Part shown: piece after piece, positions 33,836 to 47,270 of the stretch
Layout: each line of letters opens with the position of its first letter
Position numbering within the stretch: position 1 is the first letter of the stretch
NCBI GenBank assembly: GCA_014360055.1
Contig: JACIYH010000012.1
Coordinates: 1 to 50,577, forward strand
Direction of reading: 5' to 3'
From: Bacillota bacterium
GTDB taxonomy: Bacteria > Bacillota > Sulfobacillia > JACIYH01
Length of the DNA: 50,577 nt
Translations under genes and position numbers: made by a program
The notes under the pieces: model-generated
The model's database searches: none
The model's input: the letters and a program-made list of their open reading frames with translations, nothing else
Told to the model about the DNA's origin: nothing

Positions 33836-35140
33836 TCAGAGCAGCAGCAGGGCCGGGTTCTCGAGGGCGGACTTGATCCACCGGAGGAAACGGGCAGCGG
33901 GTGCACCGTCCACGATGCGGTGATCGAAGACCAGACTGAGCGTGCATACGGGGCGCACCACTACCTGTCCCGCCTGCGCCACCGGCCGGTCCTCGATGGC
34001 ACCCACCCCCAGGATGGCCGCCTCGGGCAGGTTGATGAGCGGGGAGAACACCTCGATCTCGTACATCCCCAGGTTGGTCACCGTGAAGGTGCCGCCCACC
34101 AGGTCGTCCGGCGAGATGGTGCCCGCACGTGCGGCCTCGGTCAGCCGGTGGCGGGTTGCAGCGATGTCGCCGAGACCTCTCCTGTCGGCATCCCGGATGA
34201 CGGGCACCACGAGACCTTGGTCGGTGTCCACGGCCACCCCGATGTGCACCCCCCCGTGCTGTACCACGGTCTCGCCGTCCAGGGAGGCGTTCATGTAGGG
34301 GAACGCACGCAGGGCGGCCGCGGCCACCCGCACCACGATATCGGTGAAGGTAAGCCTGACGCCGTGGCTGGCTTCCACCCGGGGGAGCAACGCTTCCCGC
34401 AGTTCGCACGCCTTCGTCATATCCGCGTGCACCGTGAGGGTGACGGCGGCGGTCTGGGTCGCGCTGGCGGCCATGCGCTCCGCGATCACCCGGCGCCTGC
34501 CCGCTAAAGGTACCCGGGTCTCACCCTGCCGCGGCGTCGAAACCGCCCCTGGCGGCGCCATTTCCGCAGGCGCCGCTGTCGGGGGCACGGTCTCGGCCGA
34601 CACTTCCTGGCGCGCCCTGTGCGCAGCGCGGACATCTTGCTCGGTGACGAGGCCATCGGGGCCGGTACCCGTGACCGCGGCAAGGTCAAGCCCCAACTCA
34701 CGGGCCAGGCGCCTTGCGGCAGGGGTGGAGCGTACCCACTGCCCCGGGGCACCAGATCCCGTTGCGTCCGCGGCGGCAGGCCCAGGGGCGGAGGGCGTGG
34801 CTGGGGCGGCTGCGGCAGCAGCGGCGACCAGGGCGGCAACGGGGGTGCCGACGGGGACCGACTGGCCCGCAGGGACGAGAATCCTGAGCACCCCGTCGGC
34901 AGGGCTGGGGACGGTGGCCGTGACTTTCTCGGACAGGACCTCGAGAAGCGGTTCCCCTTTGCTGACGGTCTCACCGTCACGCCGCATCCACTTCTCCACC
35001 CGGCCCTGCTTCATGGTGAGACCCAGGCGGGGCATCACCACCTTCACCGCGCCTGTGCCCACCCCTTCCGCGACTCCGGCGGCGGGGGTCGGGGAGCCCC
35101 CGGGGTTCGGCGCGACAGCCCCGTCAGTCACCGGGATCAC
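33836..35140 (-). CDS. Dihydrolipoamide acyltransferase (E2) of a 2-oxoacid/acetoin dehydrogenase
   Basis: About 430 residues with the complete E2 layout. Lipoyl domain at about 30-105, with the lipoylated Lys in LEVLSEKVTATV; an Ala/Pro-rich linker; peripheral-subunit-binding domain (STPAARRLARELGLDLAAVT); a second linker; catalytic domain from about 205, ending with VFDHRIVDGAPAARFL, which holds the active-site His and Asp. The GLTM form of the lipoyl domain start is frequent in acetoin-dehydrogenase E2. The GTG at 35140 overlaps the E1 stop; GTG 35131, eight bases from GGCAGG, is also possible. Confidence 0.9.
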   Translation of the reverse strand: MIPVTDGAVAPNPGGSPTPAAGVAEGVGTGAVKVVMPRLGLTMKQGRVEKWMRRDGETVSKGEPLLEVLSEKVTATVPSPADGVLRILVPAGQSVPVGTPVAALVAAAAAAAPATPSAPGPAAADATGSGAPGQWVRSTPAARRLARELGLDLAAVTGTGPDGLVTEQDVRAAHRARQEVSAETVPPTAAPAEMAPPGAVSTPRQGETRVPLAGRRRVIAERMAASATQTAAVTLTVHADMTKACELREALLPRVEASHGVRLTFTDIVVRVAAAALRAFPYMNASLDGETVVQHGGVHIGVAVDTDQGLVVPVIRDADRRGLGDIAATRHRLTEAARAGTISPDDLVGGTFTVTNLGMYEIEVFSPLINLPEAAILGVGAIEDRPVAQAGQVVVRPVCTLSLVFDHRIVDGAPAARFLRWIKSALENPALLLL

Positions 35141-36624
35141 CTGCCCAGCACGCGGCGGACGGCGGCCGCGATCTTTCCTTCGTCCGGCGGAACCAGGCTC
35201 TCCAGGGCTGGCGTGAAGGGGATGACCACGTTGGGCGCTGCCACCCGCACGATGGGGGCGTCCAGGTACTCCACCGCCCGCTCCGCCACCCTGGCCGCAA
35301 TCTCGGCACCGATCCCCCCCGTAAGGGGCCCCTCCTCTACCACCACCAGCCGGTGTGTCTTGCGCACGGAGGCCAGGATGGTCTCCTCATCAAGAGGGAC
35401 CAGAGTGCGTGGGTCCAGGACCTCGACAGAAATGCCCTCCGCAGCCAGGTCCTCCGCCGCACGCAGGGCCACCGGCACGCTACCCAGGATGGCCACCACG
35501 GTGACGTCCGTGCCCACCCTCTTGACGTCGGCCACGCCGAAGGGGATGAGGCACTCCCCCTCCGGCATTTCCCCGCCCTCGTAGTAGAGAGCCTTGTGCT
35601 CGAAAAAGAGTACCGGATTGGGGTCGCGGATGGCCGTCTTGAGCAACCCCTTCATGTCGGCGGGAGTGGACGGGCAGGCCACCTTGAGGCCCGGGTAATG
35701 GATGAAGGTGGCCTCCAGGCTCTGCGAGTGCTGGCCACCCGCCGACAGACCGCATCCCCCCGGCACGCGGATCACCAGGGGAATGGTGGCCTGGCCGCCC
35801 GTCATGTAGCGCTGCTTGGCCACCTGATTCAGGATGGCATCCGCGCACACGAGCAGGAAGTCCTCGAACATGATCTCCACCACCGGGCGCATACCCGTCA
35901 TGGCCGCCCCCAGGGCGCAACCCACGATGGCGCTCTCCGAGATGGGGGTGTTACGCACCCGCTCCGGTCCGAATTCCTCAAAGAGGGGTGTGGTCACCCC
36001 GAAGACAGCCTGCCGCAGGTCTTCACCCATGAGGAAGACCCGCTCGTCCCGCCGCATCTCCTCCCGCAGAGCCTCCTGGATGGCGGCCACCCCGTTGAGC
36101 AACCGCGTGGGCCTCGCCGCGGGAGGAGGCGACCCGGTGGCAGCATGTGAGGGGGGTAGTACCAGGTCGGGCGGGGGCTGGTAGGCGGGCGCGAAGAGGT
36201 CCCGGTCCAGGGTTTCCGGGTCGGGGAAAGGGCTGCCCTGGGCCTCCTCGACGGCCGCTTCCACCTCGGAGGCCACCTGCACCTCGATCTCGTCCAGCAC
36301 ACCGGCCTCCACCCCCTGCTCCAGCAGGTGGGCCCGCAGCCGGGCGATGGGGCACTTATTCCTCCACTCTTCGACCTCGTCAGGAGAACGATAAGTCTCC
36401 GGGTCGCCCTCGTAATGCCCCCGCCAGCGGTAGGTCAGACACTCCAGCAGGCTGGGCCCCTCCCCGGCCCGGGCGCGGGCCACCGCCTCGGCGGCCGCCT
36501 GACGTACGGCCAGCACGTCGTTTCCGTCCACCTGTCTCCCGGGAATCCCGTAGGCGGCAGCGCGCTCTGCAACGGGGACGGGCGGGGCGCGGTGAGGTGC
36601 AGGCACCCCGACCGCCCGTGGCAC
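35137..36624 (-). CDS. E1 fusion: C-terminal part of E1-alpha joined to complete E1-beta
   Basis: Residues about 15-165 match the last third of E1-alpha (VAERAAAYGIPGRQVDGNDV, LLECLTYRWRGHYEGDPETY). Residues about 170-495 are a full E1-beta (IQEALREEMRRDERVFLMGE, FEEFGPERVRNTPISESAIV, GGQHSQSLEATFIHYPGLKV, VVEEGPLTGGIGAEIAARVA). There is no stop between them, so the ancestral gene was probably an alpha-beta fusion of the kind known in some bacteria. The E1-alpha part upstream of VPVAERA is out of frame and internally deleted, see 36585-36893. The thiamine-diphosphate GDG...N motif is absent. The start is undetermined. Confidence 0.8.
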   Translation of the reverse strand: MPRAVGVPAPHRAPPVPVAERAAAYGIPGRQVDGNDVLAVRQAAAEAVARARAGEGPSLLECLTYRWRGHYEGDPETYRSPDEVEEWRNKCPIARLRAHLLEQGVEAGVLDEIEVQVASEVEAAVEEAQGSPFPDPETLDRDLFAPAYQPPPDLVLPPSHAATGSPPPAARPTRLLNGVAAIQEALREEMRRDERVFLMGEDLRQAVFGVTTPLFEEFGPERVRNTPISESAIVGCALGAAMTGMRPVVEIMFEDFLLVCADAILNQVAKQRYMTGGQATIPLVIRVPGGCGLSAGGQHSQSLEATFIHYPGLKVACPSTPADMKGLLKTAIRDPNPVLFFEHKALYYEGGEMPEGECLIPFGVADVKRVGTDVTVVAILGSVPVALRAAEDLAAEGISVEVLDPRTLVPLDEETILASVRKTHRLVVVEEGPLTGGIGAEIAARVAERAVEYLDAPIVRVAAPNVVIPFTPALESLVPPDEGKIAAAVRRVLGR

Positions 36625-36893
36625 ACGCCTCCTTCCCGTCCCAGCAGTTCGGCAAACATGGGACCCAGCCGGGCACCCCGGGCGATGTGGTGTCCGTGGC
36701 CCCGGTGGGTGGTAGAGATCCAGTCACCCGGGCGCAGCACGGCGCACACGCCCACCGCAGTGGCCTCCTGCCCGATGCACAGGTGCACCATGCCGGGGAT
36801 CTGGCCCTCCGCATAGAGTTGGGCTACCCTCTCCTCGAAGCGGCGGATGCGTACCATCCGCCGGTAAAGGTCCAGCAGGTCGTCCGCAGTCAT
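36585..36893 (-). pseudogene. E1-alpha N-terminal fragment
   Basis: From ATG 36893, behind GGAGGAGG, about 103 residues match the start of E1-alpha: YRRMVRIRRFEERVAQLYAE, MVHLCIGQEATAVGVCAVL, DWISTTHRGHGHHIARGARL, and GGVCHGRSGCLHLTAP. Then about 100 residues that normally follow (the GDGA...NN thiamine-diphosphate and Mg region) are missing, and the reading frame shifts by one relative to the remaining alpha part. The join lies around 36575-36600 in the C-rich run CCCCGCCCGTCCCCG. Translated alone the frame ends at 36435 in nonsense. Confidence 0.8.
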
Positions 36894-36927
36894 CGACGCA
36901 CCTCCTCCGATGGCCGGCGATGGGGGT

Positions 36928-37335
36928 TTACGACCACAGCCCCTTCTGCCTGAGGTAGTCCTTATAGAGCTTGATGTTCTTCGGGAGCAGGAAGGATAGC
37001 TTCATGATGCCGGCGATGTTCCCCTCCGTGCGCACCTGGCGCCGCCCGAAGGCCACCATCACGTTGAGACGTCCCGTGAAGATGTCGTGGAACACGTCGG
37101 CGTTGAGCTTCATGGCGCAGCCCGGCGGCTCTTCCGGGTAGCGATCGAGAATAACCACGTCCCGGCCACTGGTGCAGTCCAGGGTGTACCCCAGACCCAG
37201 GTCTTCGATCTTCACCCCCACCACCATGCCGAGGTTCTTCCAGGCCTCGAGCAACTCCGGGTCGGTCTTGGTGAGTTCGAAGTACTCCAGCAGGAAAGGC
37301 CGGGCCTGTTCCGGATCCCGGTAAGGAAACGGCAT
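36928..37335 (-). CDS. SCP2 sterol-carrier-domain protein
   Basis: About 135 residues with the SCP2-like fold: YRDPEQARPFLLEYFELTKT, GYTLDCTSGRDVVILDRYPE, ADVFHDIFTGRLNVMVAFGR and GNIAGIMKLSFLLP. Such single-domain proteins bind lipids or acyl-CoA-like ligands. ATG 37335 is seven bases from GGAGGG. The IclR gene upstream ends three bases before, and the E1 gene starts 35 bases after, so it is in the same transcription unit as the dehydrogenase complex. Confidence 0.75.
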   Translation of the reverse strand: MPFPYRDPEQARPFLLEYFELTKTDPELLEAWKNLGMVVGVKIEDLGLGYTLDCTSGRDVVILDRYPEEPPGCAMKLNADVFHDIFTGRLNVMVAFGRRQVRTEGNIAGIMKLSFLLPKNIKLYKDYLRQKGLWS

Positions 37336-37337
37336 GT

Positions 37338-38129
37338 TCATCCCTCCGCATTGTGCTGGTGTTCCTGCCAACCCAACTGAAGGGAAATCCCCCGGGCAGC
37401 CTCCCGCACGAGAGCAGCAAGGTGCGCCCGGTCAGCCTCCACGCGCTGGGAGGGACCCGCCACCGAGATGGCCGCCACCACGGCGCCCGCGCCGTCCCGT
37501 ACCGGTGCGGCCACACAGGAGAGGCCGGGCAGGCTTTCCTCCCCGTCGTTCGCCACACCCTCCCGGCGCACCCGCTCCCACTCCCTGAGCACCGCCTCCC
37601 GGTCGGTGATTGTGTTCTCCGTGAAAGCGGGCGTTCCCCACAGGTCCAGCAGCGTCCGTTGTCGCTCCGGAGCCAGATGGGAGGCCAGAACCTTGCCCAG
37701 GGCGGACGAGTGGAAAGGCAGCGGAGTGCCCACCGGCAGCACCGCCACCAGGGGCACCAGCGGCTCCGCCTTCTCGATAAGCACGGCCTTGTCACCCACC
37801 AGGGTGGCCAGGTAAGCGGGCATACCCGCCCGGTCACACAGGGCACCCAGATGGCTGCGCGCGATCTCGCGCAGGTCCGTGCCCCTCACCACGGCCACAC
37901 CCAGACGGCGGGCTTCCCGGCCCAGGCGGTAGCGCCGGGTGAGCCCGTCCTGCTCTGCAAATCCTTCTTCCTCCAGCACCTTGAGCAGGAGGTGGACGGT
38001 CCCCTTGGCCAGCCCGGACCGCTCCGCCAGTTCCGTCACCCCGAGGCCCCGGCTGTTCTCGGCCAGGACGCGCAGGATGCCGAGCGCCCTTCTCACCGAA
38101 CGTCCCGTGACTGCGTTCTCGTCCCGCAC
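37338..38129 (-). CDS. IclR-family transcriptional regulator
   Basis: A 263-residue protein. Winged helix at residues about 12-70 (RALGILRVLAENSRGLGVTE, ERSGLAKGTVHLLLKVLEEE), effector domain afterwards (YLATLVGDKAVLIEKAEPL, LPFHSSALGKVLASHLAPE, GLSCVAAPVRDGAGAVVAAI). GTG 38129 is used because of GGAGGGGG four bases away from it; a longer form to 38231 lacks a site. It probably controls the downstream SCP2-E1-E2-lplA genes, with a small carboxylic acid as effector. Confidence 0.88.
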   Translation of the reverse strand: MRDENAVTGRSVRRALGILRVLAENSRGLGVTELAERSGLAKGTVHLLLKVLEEEGFAEQDGLTRRYRLGREARRLGVAVVRGTDLREIARSHLGALCDRAGMPAYLATLVGDKAVLIEKAEPLVPLVAVLPVGTPLPFHSSALGKVLASHLAPERQRTLLDLWGTPAFTENTITDREAVLREWERVRREGVANDGEESLPGLSCVAAPVRDGAGAVVAAISVAGPSQRVEADRAHLAALVREAARGISLQLGWQEHQHNAEG

Positions 38130-38252
38130 GGATCCCCCTCCATCGACCACGCCCGTCCCGCGATTCATCCCTGCTACGGCCCCGGCCCCTTCGCCGCTGC
38201 CGACCCGATCGTGGCGCGCAACTGCCCGCACAACCCGGCACCATGCGGCCGC

Positions 38253-38861
38253 TCACAGCCGCCGGGGCCCGCCGAACACCACCGAACCGGGCCCGTATTC
38301 CATCACCAGCAGGCAGAGCGGCCGCCTCTCCACGACCGATCCCCCGGGTGCCGTCCAGACCAGGGTCCCCCGCCGGGGCGCCAGGGAACGCCGGCAGGGC
38401 GCCCGCACGTGCATGTAGTCCGCGAGGGCTTCCCTGCCCAGGCGGCTAAAGAGCCGGTAGCGCCTGTCCTCCCGCGTGGTCGCCCGGCCGGGGGCAGGCA
38501 CTGCCACACGTACCCGGAGGCCGGGCGGTCCCTCCAGGTGGGCACGCAACTCCACCATTCTGCGGCCACCTCCCTCGTCCGCCACCGCCTTCACCCCACC
38601 GGTGAAGGCGGGCTCGCCCCACAAACGGCGCGAATATGTTACCGCCTCCGGGGTGCTGGCCACCAGCAGGACGACCGCCATCCCCAGGGTGGGGAACAAC
38701 GGGCGGGAGCCACCCAGCGATTGCGGAACGCCGCGGGCCGGCTCCGCCTCCAGCACCAGCAGGTACGACTCACTCTCGTTCTTCGCCAGCCGCCGGTATT
38801 CCGCGTCCGCATTGGTGGCCTCCTTCATGGCCTCCAGGTACTCCGGGCTTCCCAGCTTCAC
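38253..38861 (-). CDS. Possible SCP2-like/acetoacetate-decarboxylase-like chimera
   Basis: About 202 residues. The first 45 (MKLGSPEYLEAMKEATNADA, YLLVLEAEPARGVP) look like the beginning of another SCP2-like protein. From about residue 60 the text changes (VTYSRRLWGEPAFTGGVKAV, MVELRAHLEGPPGLRV, ending LLVMEYGPGSVVFGG) and recalls acetoacetate-decarboxylase-like proteins, lacking their catalytic-lysine region. It may be two genes fused by deletion. I am not certain of either family. It precedes the IclR gene by about 120 bases. Confidence 0.4.
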   Translation of the reverse strand: MKLGSPEYLEAMKEATNADAEYRRLAKNESESYLLVLEAEPARGVPQSLGGSRPLFPTLGMAVVLLVASTPEAVTYSRRLWGEPAFTGGVKAVADEGGGRRMVELRAHLEGPPGLRVRVAVPAPGRATTREDRRYRLFSRLGREALADYMHVRAPCRRSLAPRRGTLVWTAPGGSVVERRPLCLLVMEYGPGSVVFGGPRRL

Positions 38862-38960
38862 ACCCTTCCCTCCCTCTTCCCATCGGCCCGAATTGCCCCG
38901 CCCTCCTGCGCCGCTGGCCTGCGCTTCCCCGGGAGCGGCCCCGGGGCTGAACCGGGCGGC

Positions 38961-39974
38961 CTAGGGCTGGACGATGATCTTCATGGCGCGAGCATCGCGC
39001 CTGGTGAGTACGGCGAACCCCTCCTCCACCACCTGTTCGAGGGGGATGGTGCCCGTCACCAGGGGCAGGGGCCTGATCCTGCCTGCCGCCAGCAGGGCGA
39101 TGGCCCGGTCATACTCGTCGTAGCTGGCGTAGCTCCCCCTGACCTCCAGTTCCGACATGACCAGGGTGAGGAAGTCGGCCGGCACGGGATCGTGGCAGAT
39201 GCCCAGCACCACCATCTGCCCGCCTTTCTTCACCAGGGTGAACGGCTCCGCCATGCTCTCGGCACTGCCGGCACACAGGAAGGCCACATCGCACCCCTGT
39301 CCTCCCGTCAGGGAATCCATGAGGTAGGCCAGGTTCTCCCGGGAGGGATCTATCACCCTGGTGGCACCCAGTTGCCGCGCCAGTTCCGCGCGGTAGGGGT
39401 TCACCTCGCTCACGTACACCTCCGCCGCTCCGGCCAGGAAAGCGGCCATGGCGGTGAAGAGACCGATGGGTCCGCCCCCCAGCACCAGCACGCGGTCGCC
39501 GGGGCGCAGGCGGGACAGGTTCACCCCGTGCAGGGCCATGGCCAGGGGGTCTACCAGGGCCCCCTCGATGTCGCTCATCCCCTCTGGTAGCCGGTGCAGG
39601 GCGCGGGCGGGGGCCTTCATGAACTCGGCCATGCCCCCGTCCATGGTCAGGCCCGTCATGACCACGTTTTCACACAGGCTGGGACGACCCGCCCGGCAGT
39701 AAGCACAGGTCAGGCAGGGGATGACGCCGTTCACCGTGGCGCGGTCACCGGGCAGCCAGCCCTCCACCCCCTCTCCCACCTCCACCACTTCCGCTGCCAG
39801 TTCGTGCCCTATCACCACCCCCGGCTCGTAGATCCCCACCTGGTAGGCCTCCACGTCCGACCCGCAGATGCCGCACGCCTTCACCCGCAACAGCACCTCA
39901 TCCGGGCCCAGCTCGGGCACGGGCCTCTCTTCCACACGGGTGTCGCCCGCACCATAGTAGACCGCTGCCTTCAT
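38961..39974 (-). CDS. Zinc-dependent alcohol dehydrogenase (MDR family)
   Basis: A 337-residue medium-chain dehydrogenase. Catalytic zinc site: KACGICGSDVEAY and IGHELAAEV. Structural zinc loop with four Cys: CLTCAYCRAGRPSLC. NAD(P) site: VLVLGGGPIGLF. Length and order fit the threonine/sorbitol/butanediol dehydrogenase group. The neighbouring acetoin-type dehydrogenase genes make a butanediol or acetoin substrate attractive but unproven. ATG 39974 overlaps the stop of the preceding small membrane protein gene and follows GGGAGG. Confidence 0.88.
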   Translation of the reverse strand: MKAAVYYGAGDTRVEERPVPELGPDEVLLRVKACGICGSDVEAYQVGIYEPGVVIGHELAAEVVEVGEGVEGWLPGDRATVNGVIPCLTCAYCRAGRPSLCENVVMTGLTMDGGMAEFMKAPARALHRLPEGMSDIEGALVDPLAMALHGVNLSRLRPGDRVLVLGGGPIGLFTAMAAFLAGAAEVYVSEVNPYRAELARQLGATRVIDPSRENLAYLMDSLTGGQGCDVAFLCAGSAESMAEPFTLVKKGGQMVVLGICHDPVPADFLTLVMSELEVRGSYASYDEYDRAIALLAAGRIRPLPLVTGTIPLEQVVEEGFAVLTRRDARAMKIIVQP

Positions 39975-40204
39975 GGTCTCCGCCTCCCCGCCGCTGACTG
40001 ACCCTCCCACTCGCGGAAGAGATGGCGCCGCTTCCACAGGAAGGGGATGAGGAGGGCGCCCAGGCCCAGGGTCCACACGTTGATGAGGGCCTCGAAAACC
40101 ATCTTGTACACCTCGGAGGTCTCTGCCTGCACCGCCCCGGTGGTGAAATAGAGCACCCAGTACAGCACCGTCGTCCCCGCCGTAAAGAAGAGGACTCCCG
40201 CCAT
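39971..40204 (-). CDS. Small two-TM membrane protein
   Basis: About 77 residues with two hydrophobic segments (GVLFFTAGTTVLYWVLYFTT and LINVWTLGLGALLIPFLW) and a basic/aromatic end (KRRHLFREW). ATG 40204 has only AGGTG before it; the frame is open to 40303 but that part is low complexity. It overlaps the alcohol dehydrogenase start by four bases (ATGA), so both are co-translated. No family recognised. Confidence 0.55.
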   Translation of the reverse strand: MAGVLFFTAGTTVLYWVLYFTTGAVQAETSEVYKMVFEALINVWTLGLGALLIPFLWKRRHLFREWEGQSAAGRRRP

Positions 40205-40804: not shown

Positions 40805-40833
40805 TTGACAGCCAGGAAACGGATGGCAATAAT
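40805..40833 (+). promoter_or_regulatory. Sigma-A-type promoter of the FadR-like operon
   Basis: TTGACA at 40805-40810, exactly 17 bases, then AATAAT at 40828-40833 (five of six matches). It is the best hexamer pair seen in the window. It lies 155 bases before the start of the FadR-like gene; transcription would begin near 40840. Confidence 0.65.
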
Positions 40834-40844
40834 GGCAGGGGACG

Positions 40845-40857
40845 TGGTCAGACCTGG
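40845..40857 (+). promoter_or_regulatory. FadR-like operator
   Basis: TGGTCAGACCTGG contains the perfect inverted repeat GGTC-A-GACC. It matches the enterobacterial FadR consensus CTGGTCnGACCTG at 11 of 12 informative positions. It lies at about +5 to +17 of the predicted transcript, where a bound repressor would block initiation or elongation. The downstream gene encodes a FadR-like protein, so autoregulation released by long-chain acyl-CoA is a reasonable inference. Confidence 0.55.
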
Positions 40858-40987
40858 TGGGCTGCGCGGTCTTACCTCAACCCCGCCCCGCGGTAACTGC
40901 CTAAGTATCTCGGTGTCCTACTGCCCCTTGCGGGAGGAATCCACTGCGCCACACCCGGTGCCATCATCCTCGGGGAGGGAAGAGCCG

Positions 40988-41737
40988 GTGCAAGAGACGG
41001 CGCGCCGTGCCTCCGACCGGGTGGAGGAACGCCTGATAGGCGCCATCCTCGGGGGTGCCTACCCGCCGGGCGCCGCGCTGCCGCCCGAGCGGGAACTGGC
41101 CGTCAGTCTGGGGGTAGCCCGCCCCACCCTGCGGGAAGCCATGCAGAGGCTGGCACGGGACGGGTGGATCACGGTGCGGCCCGGGCAGCCCCCCGTGGTC
41201 AACGACTTCTGGCAGGAAGGCAACCTCAACGTCCTTGACGCCTTGGTCAGGTTTGCGGAAAGCCTTCCACGAGAATACGAACACCTCCCCCGGGACCAGT
41301 TCATCACCTGGCTCCTCGAGGTACGGGCGGCCCTGGCACCCGCCTTCAGCCGGGCCGCCGTGCTCAGCAGTCCCGCCCGGGTGGTGGCGGCCTTGGCGGG
41401 GTACGAGGACCTGGCTGATGACCCCGCCGCCTTTGCTGCCTTCGATTGGGAACTGCAGCGCTCCCTGGCCCGATTGTCGGGCAATCCCGTTTTCGTGCTC
41501 ATGTTGAACAGTTGCACCCGGCTGTACGGCCGCGCGGCCGAGCGTTACTTCGGGTACCCTGAGAACCGCGCGGCCTCGCGCAGGTTCTACGCCCGGCTGC
41601 TGGAGGCAGCTATGGCCCGGGATGCTGAGGGGGCGGCCGCCAGCGTCACCGAGGCCATGCAGGAAAGCATCGCCCTGTGGCGGGAAACCGCCTCTGAGGG
41701 GGAATCGCTCACGACGGGCCGGCGGGAGGGCGGGTAG
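40988..41737 (+). CDS. FadR-type GntR-family regulator
   Basis: A 249-residue protein. Winged helix: RVEERLIGAILGGAYPPGAA, LPPERELAVSLGVARPTLRE. The C-terminal helical domain follows enterobacterial FadR rather than the commoner FCD type: LNVLDALVRFAES, then SLARLSGNPVFVLMLN, LYGRAAERYFGYPENRAAS, matching the acyl-CoA-binding region in order and spacing. GTG 40988 is nine bases after GGAGG. The flavoprotein gene begins two bases past its stop. It probably controls this operon through the operator at 40845-40857. The FadR subfamily is inferred from reading, not from a search. Confidence 0.78.
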   Translation: MQETARRASDRVEERLIGAILGGAYPPGAALPPERELAVSLGVARPTLREAMQRLARDGWITVRPGQPPVVNDFWQEGNLNVLDALVRFAESLPREYEHLPRDQFITWLLEVRAALAPAFSRAAVLSSPARVVAALAGYEDLADDPAAFAAFDWELQRSLARLSGNPVFVLMLNSCTRLYGRAAERYFGYPENRAASRRFYARLLEAAMARDAEGAAASVTEAMQESIALWRETASEGESLTTGRREGG

Positions 41738-41739
41738 CC

Positions 41740-43329
41740 GTGAGACGCTGGAACGGCTGGGGGGACGAGGCGATCACCTATCCGGTGTCGCCGGGAGCGC
41801 AGCGCTATCTGGAGGCGGCGCTGGGACCGGGCACGCCGCCGCGGGACGCGGCCCTGGCGGAGGTGGTGGCCCGGGTTCCCCCCTCACGCCTGCCAGCCCA
41901 TCCCCTGGTGAGCACCGATCCCGAGCAACGGGTGCGCCACGCGCTGGGCCAGAGCCTGCCCGACTGGATCGCCGCCCGCAGCGGCACTATTGCCGCATTC
42001 CCCGACGGGGTGGCCTTCCCCTCGGGGAACGAAGAGGTGCGCGAACTCATCCGATATGCCCGGGACACCGGTATCCGCATCATTCCCTACGGGGGAGGAA
42101 CCAGCGTGCTCGGGCACCTGGCGGTATCACCAGGCGATCCCCCGGTACTCTCCGTGGACCTGGGGCGGATGAACGCCCTCATCCACCTGGACGAGGCAAG
42201 CCACCTGGCAACCTTCGGAGTTGGCGTGAGGGGTCCCGAGTTGGAGGGGGCTCTCAGGGGACGGGGGTTCACTCTCGGGCACTTCCCGCAGTCCTGGGAG
42301 TACTCCACCCTGGGCGGCTGGGTGGCCACCCGCTCCGCCGGCCAGCAGTCCCTCGGGTACGGGAGGATCGAGGACCTCTTCGCCGGGGGCCGTCTGGAAT
42401 GCCCGGCGGGAACGCTGGTGATACCGCCCTTTCCCGCCTCGGCGGCCGGGCCCGACCTCCGCCAGCTGGTGTTGGGGTCGGAAGGCCGGCTGGGTATCCT
42501 GACCGAGGTGACGGTGAGAGTAAGCCCCCTGCCTGCCCGCGAGAGCTTTCCCGCCGTTTTCTTCCCCGACTTCGAGTGCGGGATGGTGGCCGTGCGGGAG
42601 ATGGTGCAGGCGGGCCTTCCCCTGTCCATGTTGCGCCTCAGCACCGCCCGGGAGACCACCACCAATCTGGTCCTGGCCGGCCGGGAGCGGCTCGTCGGAC
42701 TCCTGGAGCGGTGGCTGTCCCTCCGCGGGCTGGGGCCGGACAAGTGCATGCTCCTCATCGGCCTCTCGGGAAACCGGGTGCTCATGCGGCAGGCCCGCCG
42801 CCTGGCCCTGGAGGCGGCGCGCTCCCACGGCGGCGTGCCGGTGGTGGAAGCGTTTGGCCGCGAATGGGTCAAGCATCGTTTCCGCACCCCGTACCTGCGT
42901 AACACCCTCTGGGAGATGGGTTATGCCGTGGACACCCTGGAGACGGCCACCACCTGGAGCAAGGTCCCCGCCCTGCTGGAAGCGGTGGAGCGGGCGCTGC
43001 GGGAGGGGCTGGCCCCCATCGGTGAAAAGGTTTATGTCTTCACCCACCTGTCCCACGTCTACCCTGATGGCGCGAACATCTACACCACCTACCTGTACCG
43101 GCTGGCGGCCGATCCCGCCGAATCGCTGCGCCGCTGGCAAATCCTCAAGGAAGCCGCCAGCCGGGCCATCGTGGACGGGGGCGGGACCATCAGCCACCAG
43201 CACGGCGTCGGCACCGACCACCGGCCTTACCTGGAGGCAGAAAAGGGGCCCCTCGGTATGGAGGTGCTGCGGTCCGTGTGCCGCACCCTGGACCCGGCCG
43301 GCATCATGAACCCGGGCAAGCTGCTCTAG
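41740..43329 (+). CDS. FAD-linked oxidase, alkylglycerone-phosphate-synthase-like
   Basis: A 529-residue flavoprotein of the VAO/PCMH fold. FAD-binding: RIIPYGGGTSVLGHLAVSP; substrate-domain start: GHFPQSWEYSTLGGWVATRS; LVLGSEGRLGILTEVTVRVS; and the C-terminal active-site loop ISHQHGVGTDHRPY, comparable with SHHHGVG of alkyl-DHAP synthase. It ends with GIMNPGKLL as in the GlcD/AGPS group. If it is a true AGPS it would exchange the acyl chain of acyl-DHAP for a fatty alcohol, giving ether lipids. A D-2-hydroxyacid or glycolate oxidase is the alternative. The GlpD and kinase genes beside it favour a glycerol-phosphate role. Confidence 0.82.
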   Translation: MRRWNGWGDEAITYPVSPGAQRYLEAALGPGTPPRDAALAEVVARVPPSRLPAHPLVSTDPEQRVRHALGQSLPDWIAARSGTIAAFPDGVAFPSGNEEVRELIRYARDTGIRIIPYGGGTSVLGHLAVSPGDPPVLSVDLGRMNALIHLDEASHLATFGVGVRGPELEGALRGRGFTLGHFPQSWEYSTLGGWVATRSAGQQSLGYGRIEDLFAGGRLECPAGTLVIPPFPASAAGPDLRQLVLGSEGRLGILTEVTVRVSPLPARESFPAVFFPDFECGMVAVREMVQAGLPLSMLRLSTARETTTNLVLAGRERLVGLLERWLSLRGLGPDKCMLLIGLSGNRVLMRQARRLALEAARSHGGVPVVEAFGREWVKHRFRTPYLRNTLWEMGYAVDTLETATTWSKVPALLEAVERALREGLAPIGEKVYVFTHLSHVYPDGANIYTTYLYRLAADPAESLRRWQILKEAASRAIVDGGGTISHQHGVGTDHRPYLEAEKGPLGMEVLRSVCRTLDPAGIMNPGKLL

Positions 43330-43443
43330 CGCAGGGGAGGACCGGGCCGGCCCCGGGCGCTGGCCCACCGGGGGGGCGGGCCTGCGCGGTCGGAACACAG
43401 GTCATGCGGTGCGAGCGACACCATGCGGTTGGGGGGCGATACC

Positions 43444-45180
43444 ATGGGCGATCCGGACTGTACCGTCTGCAGGGCGCCCGGGCACGAGACCGCAGGGGAT
43501 CGCGCCCGTCGCTGGGGGACACTGGACCAGCCCTGGGACGTGGTGGTGATCGGGGGCGGGATCACCGGCGCCGGGATTTTCCGGGAGGCGGTGCGGCAAG
43601 GATACCGCACCGTACTCCTGGAACGCGGCGACTTCGCTTCCGGGACCTCCAGCCGTTCCGGGAAGCTGGTGCACGGCGGCCTGCGCTACCTCAAACAGGG
43701 CCAGGTGAGGGTTACGTGGCACTCGGTACGGGAGCGGGAAAGGCTCCTGCGCGAACTGCCCGGCCTCGTCACCCCTCTGGACATCCTGCTACCCGTTTAC
43801 AGGGGGGACCCTGTGGGAGGCTTCCTGCTCAAGGTCGGCCTCGTAATCTACGACTCCATGGCCATGCGCCGCGGGCACGAGTATTATCCCGCACCCGCCT
43901 TCCTGGGGATGGCACCCCTCGCCCGCAAGGAGGGCCTGCTGGGCGGGTTCCGGTACCGGGATGCCCTCACCGATGATGCCCGGCTGGTCCTGCGCGTAAT
44001 ACGTGAAGGGGTGGATGCGGGCGGGGTGGCGCTCAACTACGCGCCCGTCGAGGAACTCTGCTTGCCGCGCTCGGGACGAGAGAGGGGCCGGGTTGAGGGC
44101 CTTGTCGTGCGGGACGCGGTCACCGGCAGCACGGTCGAAGTGCGGGCACGGGCGGTCGTCAATGCCGCCGGCATCTGGGCGGACCGGTTGCGTGTCCGCC
44201 TGGGCAGGCGGCCCCGCCTGCGCCTCCTGCGCGGCAGCCACCTCATCTTCCCGGAGGCCCGCCTGCCCGTGGCCCGGGGGATCAACGTGTTTCACCCCGC
44301 CGATGGCCGACCCCTCTACGTGCTGCCCTGGGAAGGAGTCACCCTGGTGGGCACCACCGACGTGGACCACGGAGAGGATCCCGAGGGCGAACCCCGCATC
44401 AGCACGGTGGAGGCTGAGTACCTGCTGGAGGCCGTGCGCCACCAGTTCCCCTCTCTGGATCTCGGGCCCGACGACGTGCTCTCCACCTTCGCCGGGGTGC
44501 GGGCCGTGGTGGGCACCGGAAAGAAGGACCCCTCCCGGGAGTCGCGGGACTACGCGGTTTGGAGGGAAGAGATGCTCACCGTGGCCGGGGGCAAGCTCAC
44601 CACCTTCGGGGTGCTGGCCCGCAGTGCCCTGCGCCGCCTGCGGGCGCAACTCCCGCCCGCCCGCGAACCGGCTACCCGCGGGTCGGCCGCCCGAGAGGCC
44701 GCCACCAGGGAACACGCTGCGCCGGGGGCCGCCTCCCCGGCACCGGCGGCGCGAGCGGATGCCGCCCCGGGTACGGTCGGCGGGGCACCCGCGCTGGACC
44801 CGGCGGCCTGGTTGCGCCTGCAGGGGCGGTATGGCCCGGAAGCGCCCGACCTGGTCAACAAGGCGGGACCCGGAGAACTGGAACCCGTACCCGGGACGGC
44901 CACCCTGTGGGCGGAACTACGGTGGGCGGCAGCCCGCGAGGACGTCGTGCACCTGGACGATCTCCTCCTGCGCCGCGTACGCCTGGGGCTCCAACTTCCC
45001 CAGGGGGCCATCCCCCTGCTCGACCGCATCCGCCCCCTGGTACAAGGGGAACTGGGCTGGGACGACACCCGCTGGCAGCAGGAGGTCGACCGCTACGTCG
45101 CGCTGTGGGAGTCGTCGTACAGCCCCGCCCTCGCCGGCGCATCCCCTTGCCGAAGAAAGGAGGGAGGCCATGGGCGGTGA
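43444..45180 (+). CDS. glpD: Glycerol-3-phosphate dehydrogenase, FAD-dependent
   Basis: About 578 residues: VVVIGGGITGAGIFREAVRQ (FAD), SGTSSRSGKLVHGGLRYLKQ (the GlpD signature), LYVLPWEGVTLVGTTDVDH, FAGVRAVVG and VAGGKLTTFGVLA; the C-terminal helical domain spans about 460-570. It oxidises sn-glycerol-3-phosphate to DHAP at the membrane, reducing quinone. Unusual is an insert of about 45 residues made of Ala/Arg/Glu/Pro (REPATRGSAAREAATREHAA and onward) between the oxidoreductase and C-terminal domains. The N-terminus holds CTVC, which is not typical. ATG 43444 is chosen after a G-rich site. It overlaps the kinase gene by 11 bases. Confidence 0.9.
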   Translation: MGDPDCTVCRAPGHETAGDRARRWGTLDQPWDVVVIGGGITGAGIFREAVRQGYRTVLLERGDFASGTSSRSGKLVHGGLRYLKQGQVRVTWHSVRERERLLRELPGLVTPLDILLPVYRGDPVGGFLLKVGLVIYDSMAMRRGHEYYPAPAFLGMAPLARKEGLLGGFRYRDALTDDARLVLRVIREGVDAGGVALNYAPVEELCLPRSGRERGRVEGLVVRDAVTGSTVEVRARAVVNAAGIWADRLRVRLGRRPRLRLLRGSHLIFPEARLPVARGINVFHPADGRPLYVLPWEGVTLVGTTDVDHGEDPEGEPRISTVEAEYLLEAVRHQFPSLDLGPDDVLSTFAGVRAVVGTGKKDPSRESRDYAVWREEMLTVAGGKLTTFGVLARSALRRLRAQLPPAREPATRGSAAREAATREHAAPGAASPAPAARADAAPGTVGGAPALDPAAWLRLQGRYGPEAPDLVNKAGPGELEPVPGTATLWAELRWAAAREDVVHLDDLLLRRVRLGLQLPQGAIPLLDRIRPLVQGELGWDDTRWQQEVDRYVALWESSYSPALAGASPCRRKEGGHGR

Positions 45181-46750
45181 GTTGATCCTTTCCCTGGACG
45201 CAGGGACCCAGAGCGTACGCGCCCTGGTCTTCGACCCGCGGGGTAACCTGCGGTACCGCGCCCGGGCGCCCATCGATCCCCCCTACCATTCGCCGCAGCC
45301 GGGTTGGGCCGAACAGGAACCGGACACCTACTGGGAAGCCCTGGCCCGTGCCTGCCGCCTGCTGTGGGAACAGGGGGCACGGCCCCAATCCCTGGCCGCA
45401 GTTGCCCTGACCGGCCAGCGCGCCACCGTGGTGAATCTGGACCGGCAGGGCCGGCCCCTGCGCCCTGCCATCCTCTGGCTGGACGGGCGGCGGGCGGAGC
45501 GGTTCCCCCGGGTGGGAGGCCGTTGGGCGCTCCTCTTTGCACTGGCCGGGCTGCGGGGCACTCTTGCTTACCTGCAGGCCGAGGCCGAGGCCAACTGGCT
45601 GTGGGCCAACCAGCCCGACGTCTGGGAGCGCACCGCCCACTACCTGCTGCTGTCCGGCTACCTAACCTACCGGCTGACGGGCCGCTACGTGGACTCGGTG
45701 GGGTGTCAGGTGGGGTACATCCCCTTTGACTACCGGCGCCTTACCTGGTCGGCCCCTACGGACTGGAAGTGGCAGGCCATCCCCGTGCGCCGGGAGACCC
45801 TGCCCGATCTGACCCCACCCGGAGGGCAACTTGGCGAGGTGACGGAGCTCGCCGCACGGGCCACCGGGCTCCCCCGGGCGCTGCCCGTGGTGGCAGCCGC
45901 CGCGGACAAGGCCTGCGAGGTGCTGGGGGCCGGGTGCCTCGACCCTTCCCTGGCCTGCATCGGTTACGGAACTACCGCCACCATCAACGTGACCTCGCCC
46001 CGCTACCTGGAACCCATCCGCCTCATCCCGCCCTACCCCAGCGCGGTGCCCGGTGCCTACAACCTGGAGTTCCAGGTCTACCGCGGTTTCTGGCTGGTTT
46101 CCTGGTTCCGGGACCAGTTCGGCCGGGCCGAGACGGCGGCCGCGGAGGCGGGGCAAGGGTCATCCGCGGAGGCACTGCTCGACCGCCTGGCCGGGCAGGT
46201 CGCCCCGGGCAGCCAGGGCCTGGTGCTGCAGCCCTACTGGTCGCCCGGCCTGCGCTACCCGGGGCCCGAGGCCCGAGGGGCGGTGGTAGGCTTCGCCAGC
46301 TTCCACAACCGGGCCCACTTTTACCGGGCCCTCCTGGAAGGACTGGCTTATGCCATGAGAGAAGGGAAGGAACGGATCGAGCGGCGCACCGGGGTCTCCG
46401 TACGAGAACTGCGCGTGTGCGGGGGCGGGTCACAGAGCGACCTGGTCATGCAGATCACCGCCGACGTCTTCGACCTGCCCGCTTGCCGCCCGCACGTGGC
46501 CGAGGCATCCGGTCTGGGCGCAGCCGTGCTGGGGGCGGTGGGCGCCGGGTTGCACCGCGACCTCCCCACGGCGGTGCAGGAGATGACGCGCACCGGGGGG
46601 CGATGGGAACCGCGGCGGGAGGCAGTGGCCGTGTACGACCACCTCTACCGCAGGGTTTACCGCCGCCTCTATCCCCGGCTCCGCCCCCTCTACCGGAACC
46701 TACCGCCGGCCACCGACGGCGCGACCGGCGGGGGGCGACCGGTGAGGTGA
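45170..46750 (+). CDS. FGGY-family carbohydrate kinase
   Basis: A 526-residue kinase with the two FGGY actin-like domains: LILSLDAGTQSVRALVFDPR (phosphate-1), AALTGQR-like VALTGQRATVVNLD, LWLDGRRAERF, YGTTATINVTS and RVCGGGSQSDLVMQITADVF (adenosine motif). It lacks the close glycerol-kinase signatures seen in the remnant downstream (GDQQAALFGQ), so it is a different subgroup. Given the operon with GlpD, glycerol or another polyol is a probable substrate. ATG 45170 follows AAAGGAGGGAGG and overlaps the GlpD end. Confidence 0.85.
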   Translation: MGGELILSLDAGTQSVRALVFDPRGNLRYRARAPIDPPYHSPQPGWAEQEPDTYWEALARACRLLWEQGARPQSLAAVALTGQRATVVNLDRQGRPLRPAILWLDGRRAERFPRVGGRWALLFALAGLRGTLAYLQAEAEANWLWANQPDVWERTAHYLLLSGYLTYRLTGRYVDSVGCQVGYIPFDYRRLTWSAPTDWKWQAIPVRRETLPDLTPPGGQLGEVTELAARATGLPRALPVVAAAADKACEVLGAGCLDPSLACIGYGTTATINVTSPRYLEPIRLIPPYPSAVPGAYNLEFQVYRGFWLVSWFRDQFGRAETAAAEAGQGSSAEALLDRLAGQVAPGSQGLVLQPYWSPGLRYPGPEARGAVVGFASFHNRAHFYRALLEGLAYAMREGKERIERRTGVSVRELRVCGGGSQSDLVMQITADVFDLPACRPHVAEASGLGAAVLGAVGAGLHRDLPTAVQEMTRTGGRWEPRREAVAVYDHLYRRVYRRLYPRLRPLYRNLPPATDGATGGGRPVR

Positions 46751-46915: not shown

Positions 46916-47270
46916 CGGTGAGTTGATCGTAGGCCCGTGGCGGCGGCTTCCCGCCCTCTCCCGCAGATCTACCCCCGCCCCGCCTGGGTGGAACATGATC
47001 CGCTCAGCATTTGGGAGATCCAGCTGGAGGCCGCGCGCGAGGCCGTCTCCCTGAGTCGTGTCCGGCCGCAGGAGGTCGCGGCCATCGGCATCCCCGTGGC
47101 CGGCTGTGCCGAAGACCAGCGGGCGGCACTCTTCGGGCAGGCCTGCCTGGAGCCCGGCATGGCCAAGAACACTCCATCCAGTGGTTGCGGGACGGGCTGG
47201 GCGCGGTGGAGTCCGAGACCCTGGCCCGGACGGTACCTGACAACCTGGTCGGCGGGATGAACGCGCGAAG
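46916..47270 (+). pseudogene. glpK: Glycerol kinase remnant with multiple deletions
   Basis: Blocks of GlpK follow one another with the regions between them lost. [20 protein letters not shown] and EVAAIGIP (family residues about 35-85) run directly into [20 protein letters not shown] (about 245-265). After a frame change comes [17 protein letters not shown] and VPDN (about 310-340), and nothing after. The first ~25 residues are also missing. CGGTGAGTTGATC at 46916-46928 equals the start region of the intact kinase gene (45175-45187) and may mark the old beginning. The 165 bases before 46916 hold no recognisable gene. Confidence 0.75.

Follow-up and report, generated by a model that had tools for sequence, protein, structure and literature searches.

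The window analysed here, 50,577 nucleotides (nt) of contig JACIYH010000012.1 from a Bacillota bacterium (GenBank assembly GCA_014360055.1), contains a cassette of a predicted promoter, predicted operators and four genes, all on the plus strand, at the coordinates that an earlier note on this DNA had assigned to it (40805–46750). The genes encode a GntR-type repressor with a FadR_C domain (40988–41737; 249 amino acids, GTG start), a flavin adenine dinucleotide (FAD) enzyme resembling the alkyl-dihydroxyacetone-phosphate (alkyl-DHAP) synthase AGPS (41740–43329; 529 amino acids), a GlpD-like FAD glycerol-3-phosphate dehydrogenase (43423–45180; 585 amino acids as called, with homologues beginning about 24 residues later), and an FGGY kinase distinct from GlpK (45170–46750; 526 amino acids). 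The regulator and AGPS-like genes are separated by 2 nt and the AGPS-like and GlpD-like genes by about 93 nt, and the GlpD-like and FGGY genes overlap by 11 nt. That the regulator and the three enzyme genes (hereafter the triad) form one coherent unit, as the earlier note had proposed, was borne out by conservation of the four-gene order in relatives. Its description of the genome as Bacillota-like also held, since a Spo0A_C profile match of 157 bits in the host genome is indicative of a Bacillota-type lineage.

The regulator was assigned on the basis of its domain scores, which were 108.2 bits (5.2e-31, cut-off 23.6) for FadR_C (PF07840) versus 50.2 bits for FCD, together with 69 bits for the GntR helix-turn-helix (HTH) domain. 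Its closest solved structure was E. coli FadR (1hw1, E 1.5e-41). The comparison of FadR_C with FCD had been named in the earlier note as a possible refutation of its FadR-like regulator; FadR_C won with no grouping among FCD proteins, and an FCD-type identity was ruled out by these scores and by the residues. The latter were read from an alignment of nine triad-linked regulators with E. coli FadR, the row of which was entered by hand and matches the 1hw1 chain over the part displayed. Among the DNA-contact residues of E. coli FadR (R35, T44, R45, T46, T47, R49 and H65; PMC4259882), Arg35, Arg45 and Arg49 were invariant and T47 nearly so, with T44, T46 and H65 variable. Of the residues associated with acyl-coenzyme A (acyl-CoA) in the E. 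coli protein (G216, S219 and W223; PMC4259882), Ser219 and Trp223 were invariant, as were the positions of Arg105 and Tyr179. FadR_C was found once in the host genome, beside the triad, and six acyl-CoA dehydrogenase matches were present in the same genome.

Upstream of the regulator gene lies a predicted sigma-70-type promoter, TTGACA-17-AATAAT (40805–40833), which agrees with the consensus at 11 of 12 positions; sites of this quality numbered three in the 7-kb region, with 0.2 expected. The predicted operator 1, TGGTCAGACCT (40845–40855; 9/10 to TGGTCnGACCA), begins about 11 nt 3′ of the −10 box, and because it lies just 3′ of the promoter it should fall about at the expected transcript start. 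This placement agrees with the claim of a near-consensus operator at the start of the regulator's own transcript. Its core, TGGTCAGACC (40845–40854), matches TGGTCNGACC without a mismatch, as no other site of the window does. A weaker operator 2, absent from the earlier note, cGGTCTTACCt (40867–40877; 7/10), is predicted at an offset of exactly 22 base pairs (bp) from operator 1. Within the 300 bp upstream, the single-site score of 9/10 was matched by 0.7% of shuffles, and the tandem score by none of 1000.

The same tandem scan, against TGGTCnGACCA with spacings of 11–44 and 1000 dinucleotide shuffles, was applied to 300 bp of upstream sequence at each of ten regulator loci. A spacing of 22 was the best at six of the ten (the window, L017, L044, L042, L045 and L071), where none of the 1000 shuffles attained the pair score in any case; L041 and L019 had one perfect operator each. 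At a further locus, L016, the pair was spaced by 23. Operator 1 was kept in L016, L017, L019, L041, L042, L044, L045 and L071, and six loci (L016, L017, L041, L042, L018 and L019) had the TTGACA...operator arrangement ahead of the regulator gene. Conservation of the operator in related genomes, on which the earlier note had let its proposal stand or fall, was accordingly observed. In L019 (9940–9990), located in a metagenome-assembled genome (MAG) labelled as Acidobacteria, the likely GTG start of fadR is at the operator, a few nt past a TAGATT −10 box, which suggests that this transcript may be leaderless or near-leaderless.

The pattern GGTnnnACC-N13-GGTnnnACC was present once in the 2.7-Mb genome, at this promoter, with 0 control matches, and on account of this uniqueness the regulator is probably dedicated to the operon. 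Single TGGTCnGACC sites numbered 16 genome-wide versus 74 for the reversed control; the other matched loci that were checked were mostly in apparent coding sequence, the sites of L026, L027/L028 and L025 being in or near gaps between open reading frames. A global fatty-acid regulon is unsupported by these single-site counts and by the restriction of the tandem to this promoter.

The order FadR-AGPS-GlpD-FGGY was also identified in a relative of the same genus (L017), in other classes of the phylum (L044, L041, L043 and L045), and in MAGs titled Chloroflexi (L018) and Acidobacteria (L019); at L042, the FadR, AGPS and GlpD genes were found without the kinase gene. In a phylum sample of 398 genomes, five strong FadR_C matches (116–146 bits) were obtained beyond the window, and in all five cases the AGPS gene comes next. 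Every other FadR_C match of the sample was at or below 53 bits, and the one inspected (G527) had no link to the triad. Triads lacking FadR (L069 and L070) also lacked the operator, and since their AGPS proteins nest among the FadR-linked ones in the tree, loss of FadR is the simpler reading. The AGPS-like protein of the window was 76% identical to that of G512, a member of another class, and 75% identical to that of a same-genus relative, and within the class strong FadR_C matches were confined to this genus; these two observations make horizontal transfer of the cassette likely, as far as sequence comparison can tell.

Profiles and solved structures bore out the claimed set of alkyl-DHAP-synthase-like, glycerol-3-phosphate dehydrogenase-like and FGGY genes behind the regulator. 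The best solved matches of the AGPS-like protein were the alkyl-DHAP synthases 2uuu (E 2e-71) and 4bby. Arg419, Arg515 and Tyr578 (guinea-pig AGPS numbering) are kept in the window and were conserved in 12/12 AGPS-like proteins; we infer that they correspond to R352, R447 and Y508 of Dictyostelium AGPS, which were reported as important for catalysis (PMC3509576). The AGPS HHH motif (His615–617) reads HQH in 12/12, His616 being replaced by Gln. The fold family and the N-terminal WNGWGD motif are likewise shared with the guinea-pig and Dictyostelium enzymes, from which the bacterial protein differs in the Gln, in its operon context and in that its reaction is deduced from sequence. A metal-dependent 2-hydroxyacid (GlcD/D-lactate) dehydrogenase is the less likely identity, because the AGPS alignment spans most of the protein with the Tyr/Arg set kept; D-lactate dehydrogenase aligns only in two pieces.

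The third gene product, which is GlpD/alpha-glycerophosphate-oxidase-like by its family profiles, has DAO and DAO_C domains, and its best NCBIfam equivalog score was 281.6 versus a cut-off of 360 bits. The kinase scored highest with the XylB and GlpK models, under every curated cut-off (158.5 versus 590 bits for the GlpK model TIGR01311). From the GlpK signature of Arg83, Glu84, Tyr135, Asp245 and Phe270 (PMC3245297), the homologues keep Arg83, Asp245 and, in 10/11, Tyr135, but have Ala, Ser or Gly in place of Glu84 (Ala in the window) and Thr in place of Phe270 in 11/11. The kinase of the earlier note therefore stands as an FGGY family member and not as a canonical glycerol kinase, two of the five signature residues being gone. 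Directly behind the operon lies a feature likewise absent from the earlier note, an internally deleted glpK remnant (46928–47188, plus strand), in which positions 22–76 and 234–266 of TIGR01311 are adjacent in the DNA; no intact glpK was found elsewhere in the host genome, and a tblastx search for one in relatives returned only low-complexity noise.

A comparable triad is known from Pseudomonas aeruginosa, where the operon PA3026-PA3024 comprises an AGPS-like FAD-oxidoreductase, a GlpD-like protein and an FGGY kinase under GliR/PA3027, phospholipase C and a YegS lipid kinase being induced along with it (PMC8151288). By this published description the two operons are alike in joining the three enzymes, and differ in that an AraC-type activator takes the place of FadR and the regulon adds the YegS kinase and phospholipase C. 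Actinobacterial clusters of GlpD, TetR, AGPS and a YegS/Rv2252-type lipid kinase were observed on large replicons (L089, 3723–8525; L090, 2779–7417). Here, too, AGPS-like genes (products 38–43% identical) and GlpD-like genes adjoin a lipid-type kinase, but the regulator is TetR, the arrangement is divergent, and the kinase is of diacylglycerol type in place of FGGY.

The favoured reading is that of a dedicated, probably horizontally transferred autorepressor, relieved by acyl-CoA, of a lipid-glycerol module, which as a whole we regard as on balance probable. Its parts differ in strength: FadR-type autoregulation of the operon is highly probable, a role of the cassette in lipid-glycerol metabolism generally is put forward with good confidence, and an acyl-CoA-type ligand is, judged from the residues, likely rather than settled, as Ser219 and Trp223 persist but Gly216 does not. 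The repressor would occupy the two operators, 22 bp apart and on the same helix face, as two dimers, and from their placement would shut off its own gene together with the AGPS-like, GlpD-like and FGGY genes. By analogy with E. coli FadR, long-chain acyl-CoA on the FadR_C domain would free the repressor from DNA, and the enzymes would thus be made during fatty-acid or lipid breakdown. Going by families and residues, the kinase would phosphorylate a glycerol-type substrate, GlpD would oxidise the sn-glycerol-3-phosphate product to its dihydroxyacetone-phosphate (DHAP) form, and the AGPS-like flavoenzyme would act at C1 of the GlpD product by the covalent flavin chemistry of AGPS; taken in that order, the three enzymes could sensibly act one after another on a single substrate.

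Several observations weigh against this account. The regulator scored under both NCBIfam FadR equivalog cut-offs (171 bits versus 249.2 for TIGR02812, 175.9 bits versus 189 for NF003444), and is by sequence a member of the FadR_C family, not an equivalog of gammaproteobacterial FadR. Gly216 is replaced, by Met in the window and in most relatives. The operator is only partial at L018, and none was present within 300 bp of the FadR gene at L043. In L016 (7754–8069; genome G030, same genus), fadR is truncated and frameshifted with promoter, operators and the three enzyme genes still present, which by its sequence is a natural regulator-loss state. L071 (6655–9500; G512) is a second, decayed cassette that has only the DNA-binding part of the regulator with the tandem operator kept, and AGPS fused to the C-terminal half of GlpD. 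Deletion of the P. aeruginosa triad gave no phenotype (PMC8151288). Finally, a locus of the same phylum (L074, 740–1530) combines genes for an FCD/LldR-like regulator and a lactate permease, as named by reading the sequence, with TGGTCAGACC in an identical 22-bp tandem.

Since L074 has both, operator sequence and spacing belong to the wider FadR/FCD group, which is consistent with the subfamily operator consensus in PMC4494728. LldR/PdhR-type FCD regulators have the operator core and the 22-bp tandem in common with the cassette, and differ in their FCD ligand domain and lactate-permease target. That the operator alone shows FadR is thereby ruled out, and of the classical FadR with its operator, described in the earlier note as best known from gammaproteobacteria, the FadR_C regulator stood and the operator as a mark of FadR did not. 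A TGGTCnGACC site by itself is thus insufficient to identify FadR.

FCD-type regulators with this operator act on small acids, and the LldR-like L074, the replaced Gly216 and the scores under the equivalog cut-offs would all suit a regulator of FadR_C fold that senses another ligand, such as phosphorylated glycerol or alkyl-DHAP. We consider this doubtful, given the invariance of the Ser219, Trp223, Arg105 and Tyr179 positions with E. coli FadR and the lipid-type neighbours. Plain glycerol catabolism under lipid control, in which the FGGY kinase would have replaced the decayed GlpK, GlpD would feed glycolysis and the AGPS-like enzyme would oxidise an unrelated small substrate, accords with the failure to find any other intact glycerol-kinase-like gene in the genome, with the decayed glpK next to this one, and with the family features kept by the GlpD-like protein. 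It sits poorly with a kinase devoid of Glu84 and Phe270 and with the Tyr and Arg residues of AGPS in the flavoenzyme, and the P. aeruginosa deletion strain was normal on glycerol, though it has other glycerol kinases (PMC8151288); this reading, too, is held with considerable doubt.

Ether-lipid synthesis would instead take the FGGY kinase to glycerol-3-phosphate, GlpD to DHAP, an unlinked acyltransferase to acyl-DHAP and the AGPS-like enzyme to alkyl-DHAP, with FadR tuning the pathway to acyl-CoA supply. This direction was also proposed for PA3026-PA3024 (PMC8151288), and true AGPS proteins are the closest solved relatives, with their Arg419, Arg515 and Tyr578 conserved. Glycolysis, however, already gives DHAP, which would make the kinase and GlpD redundant; the cassettes read contained no recognised gene for an acyltransferase, for fatty-alcohol formation or for an alkyl-DHAP reductase, and His616 is Gln throughout. 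We judge synthesis unlikely. From this redundancy, the lack of a recognised acyltransferase or reductase in those cassettes, and the Pseudomonas and actinobacterial contexts, we lean, with moderate confidence at best, towards the use of lipid-derived glycerol or perhaps alkylglycerol. A specific form of such use would be oxygen-independent ether-lipid salvage, a tentative and somewhat unlikely proposal, in which the kinase would act on 1-O-alkylglycerol, GlpD would convert alkyl-glycerol-3-phosphate to alkyl-DHAP, and the AGPS-like enzyme, reversed, would hypothetically free the fatty alcohol and leave acyl-DHAP or DHAP; acyl-CoA from the freed chains would then induce the operon through FadR. 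Salvage, if true, would explain the joint retention of the three enzymes, the partial loss of the glycerol signature in the kinase, the lipid kinases that substitute for it elsewhere, and the silence of the Pseudomonas deletion on glycerol.

On the opposite strand, the neighbourhood of the cassette (33836–40076, minus) includes 2-oxoacid/acetoin-dehydrogenase-like E1 and E2 genes, an IclR regulator (37338–38231) and a zinc alcohol dehydrogenase (38961–40076).

In comparison with gammaproteobacterial FadR (E. coli; TIGR02812, PF07840), the regulator retains the domain architecture, the HTH arginines, Ser219/Trp223 and a GGTCnGACC-type operator, and differs in its host, the 22-bp tandem, the loss of Gly216, the sub-equivalog scores, and apparently one dedicated target operon that includes its own gene. 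Fatty-acid-responsive FadR was stated to be exclusive to gammaproteobacteria (PMC4259882). In the literature searched, with most subscription journals outside it, no link of FadR_C to the triad beyond gammaproteobacteria and no 22-bp tandem at the triad was found, and apart from PMC8151288 nothing turned up on how alkylglycerols are broken down or on FadR together with the triad. The enzyme triad is hence already known (PMC8151288), and the FadR_C link and the 22-bp tandem at the triad are new to that literature. FadR_C regulators thus occur outside gammaproteobacteria, linked to a single operon both in genomes of Bacillota type and in MAGs with Chloroflexi and Acidobacteria labels, and the FadR link supplies a candidate inducer, acyl-CoA, for the AGPS-GlpD-kinase triad, which in Pseudomonas as in other bacteria has no proven function.

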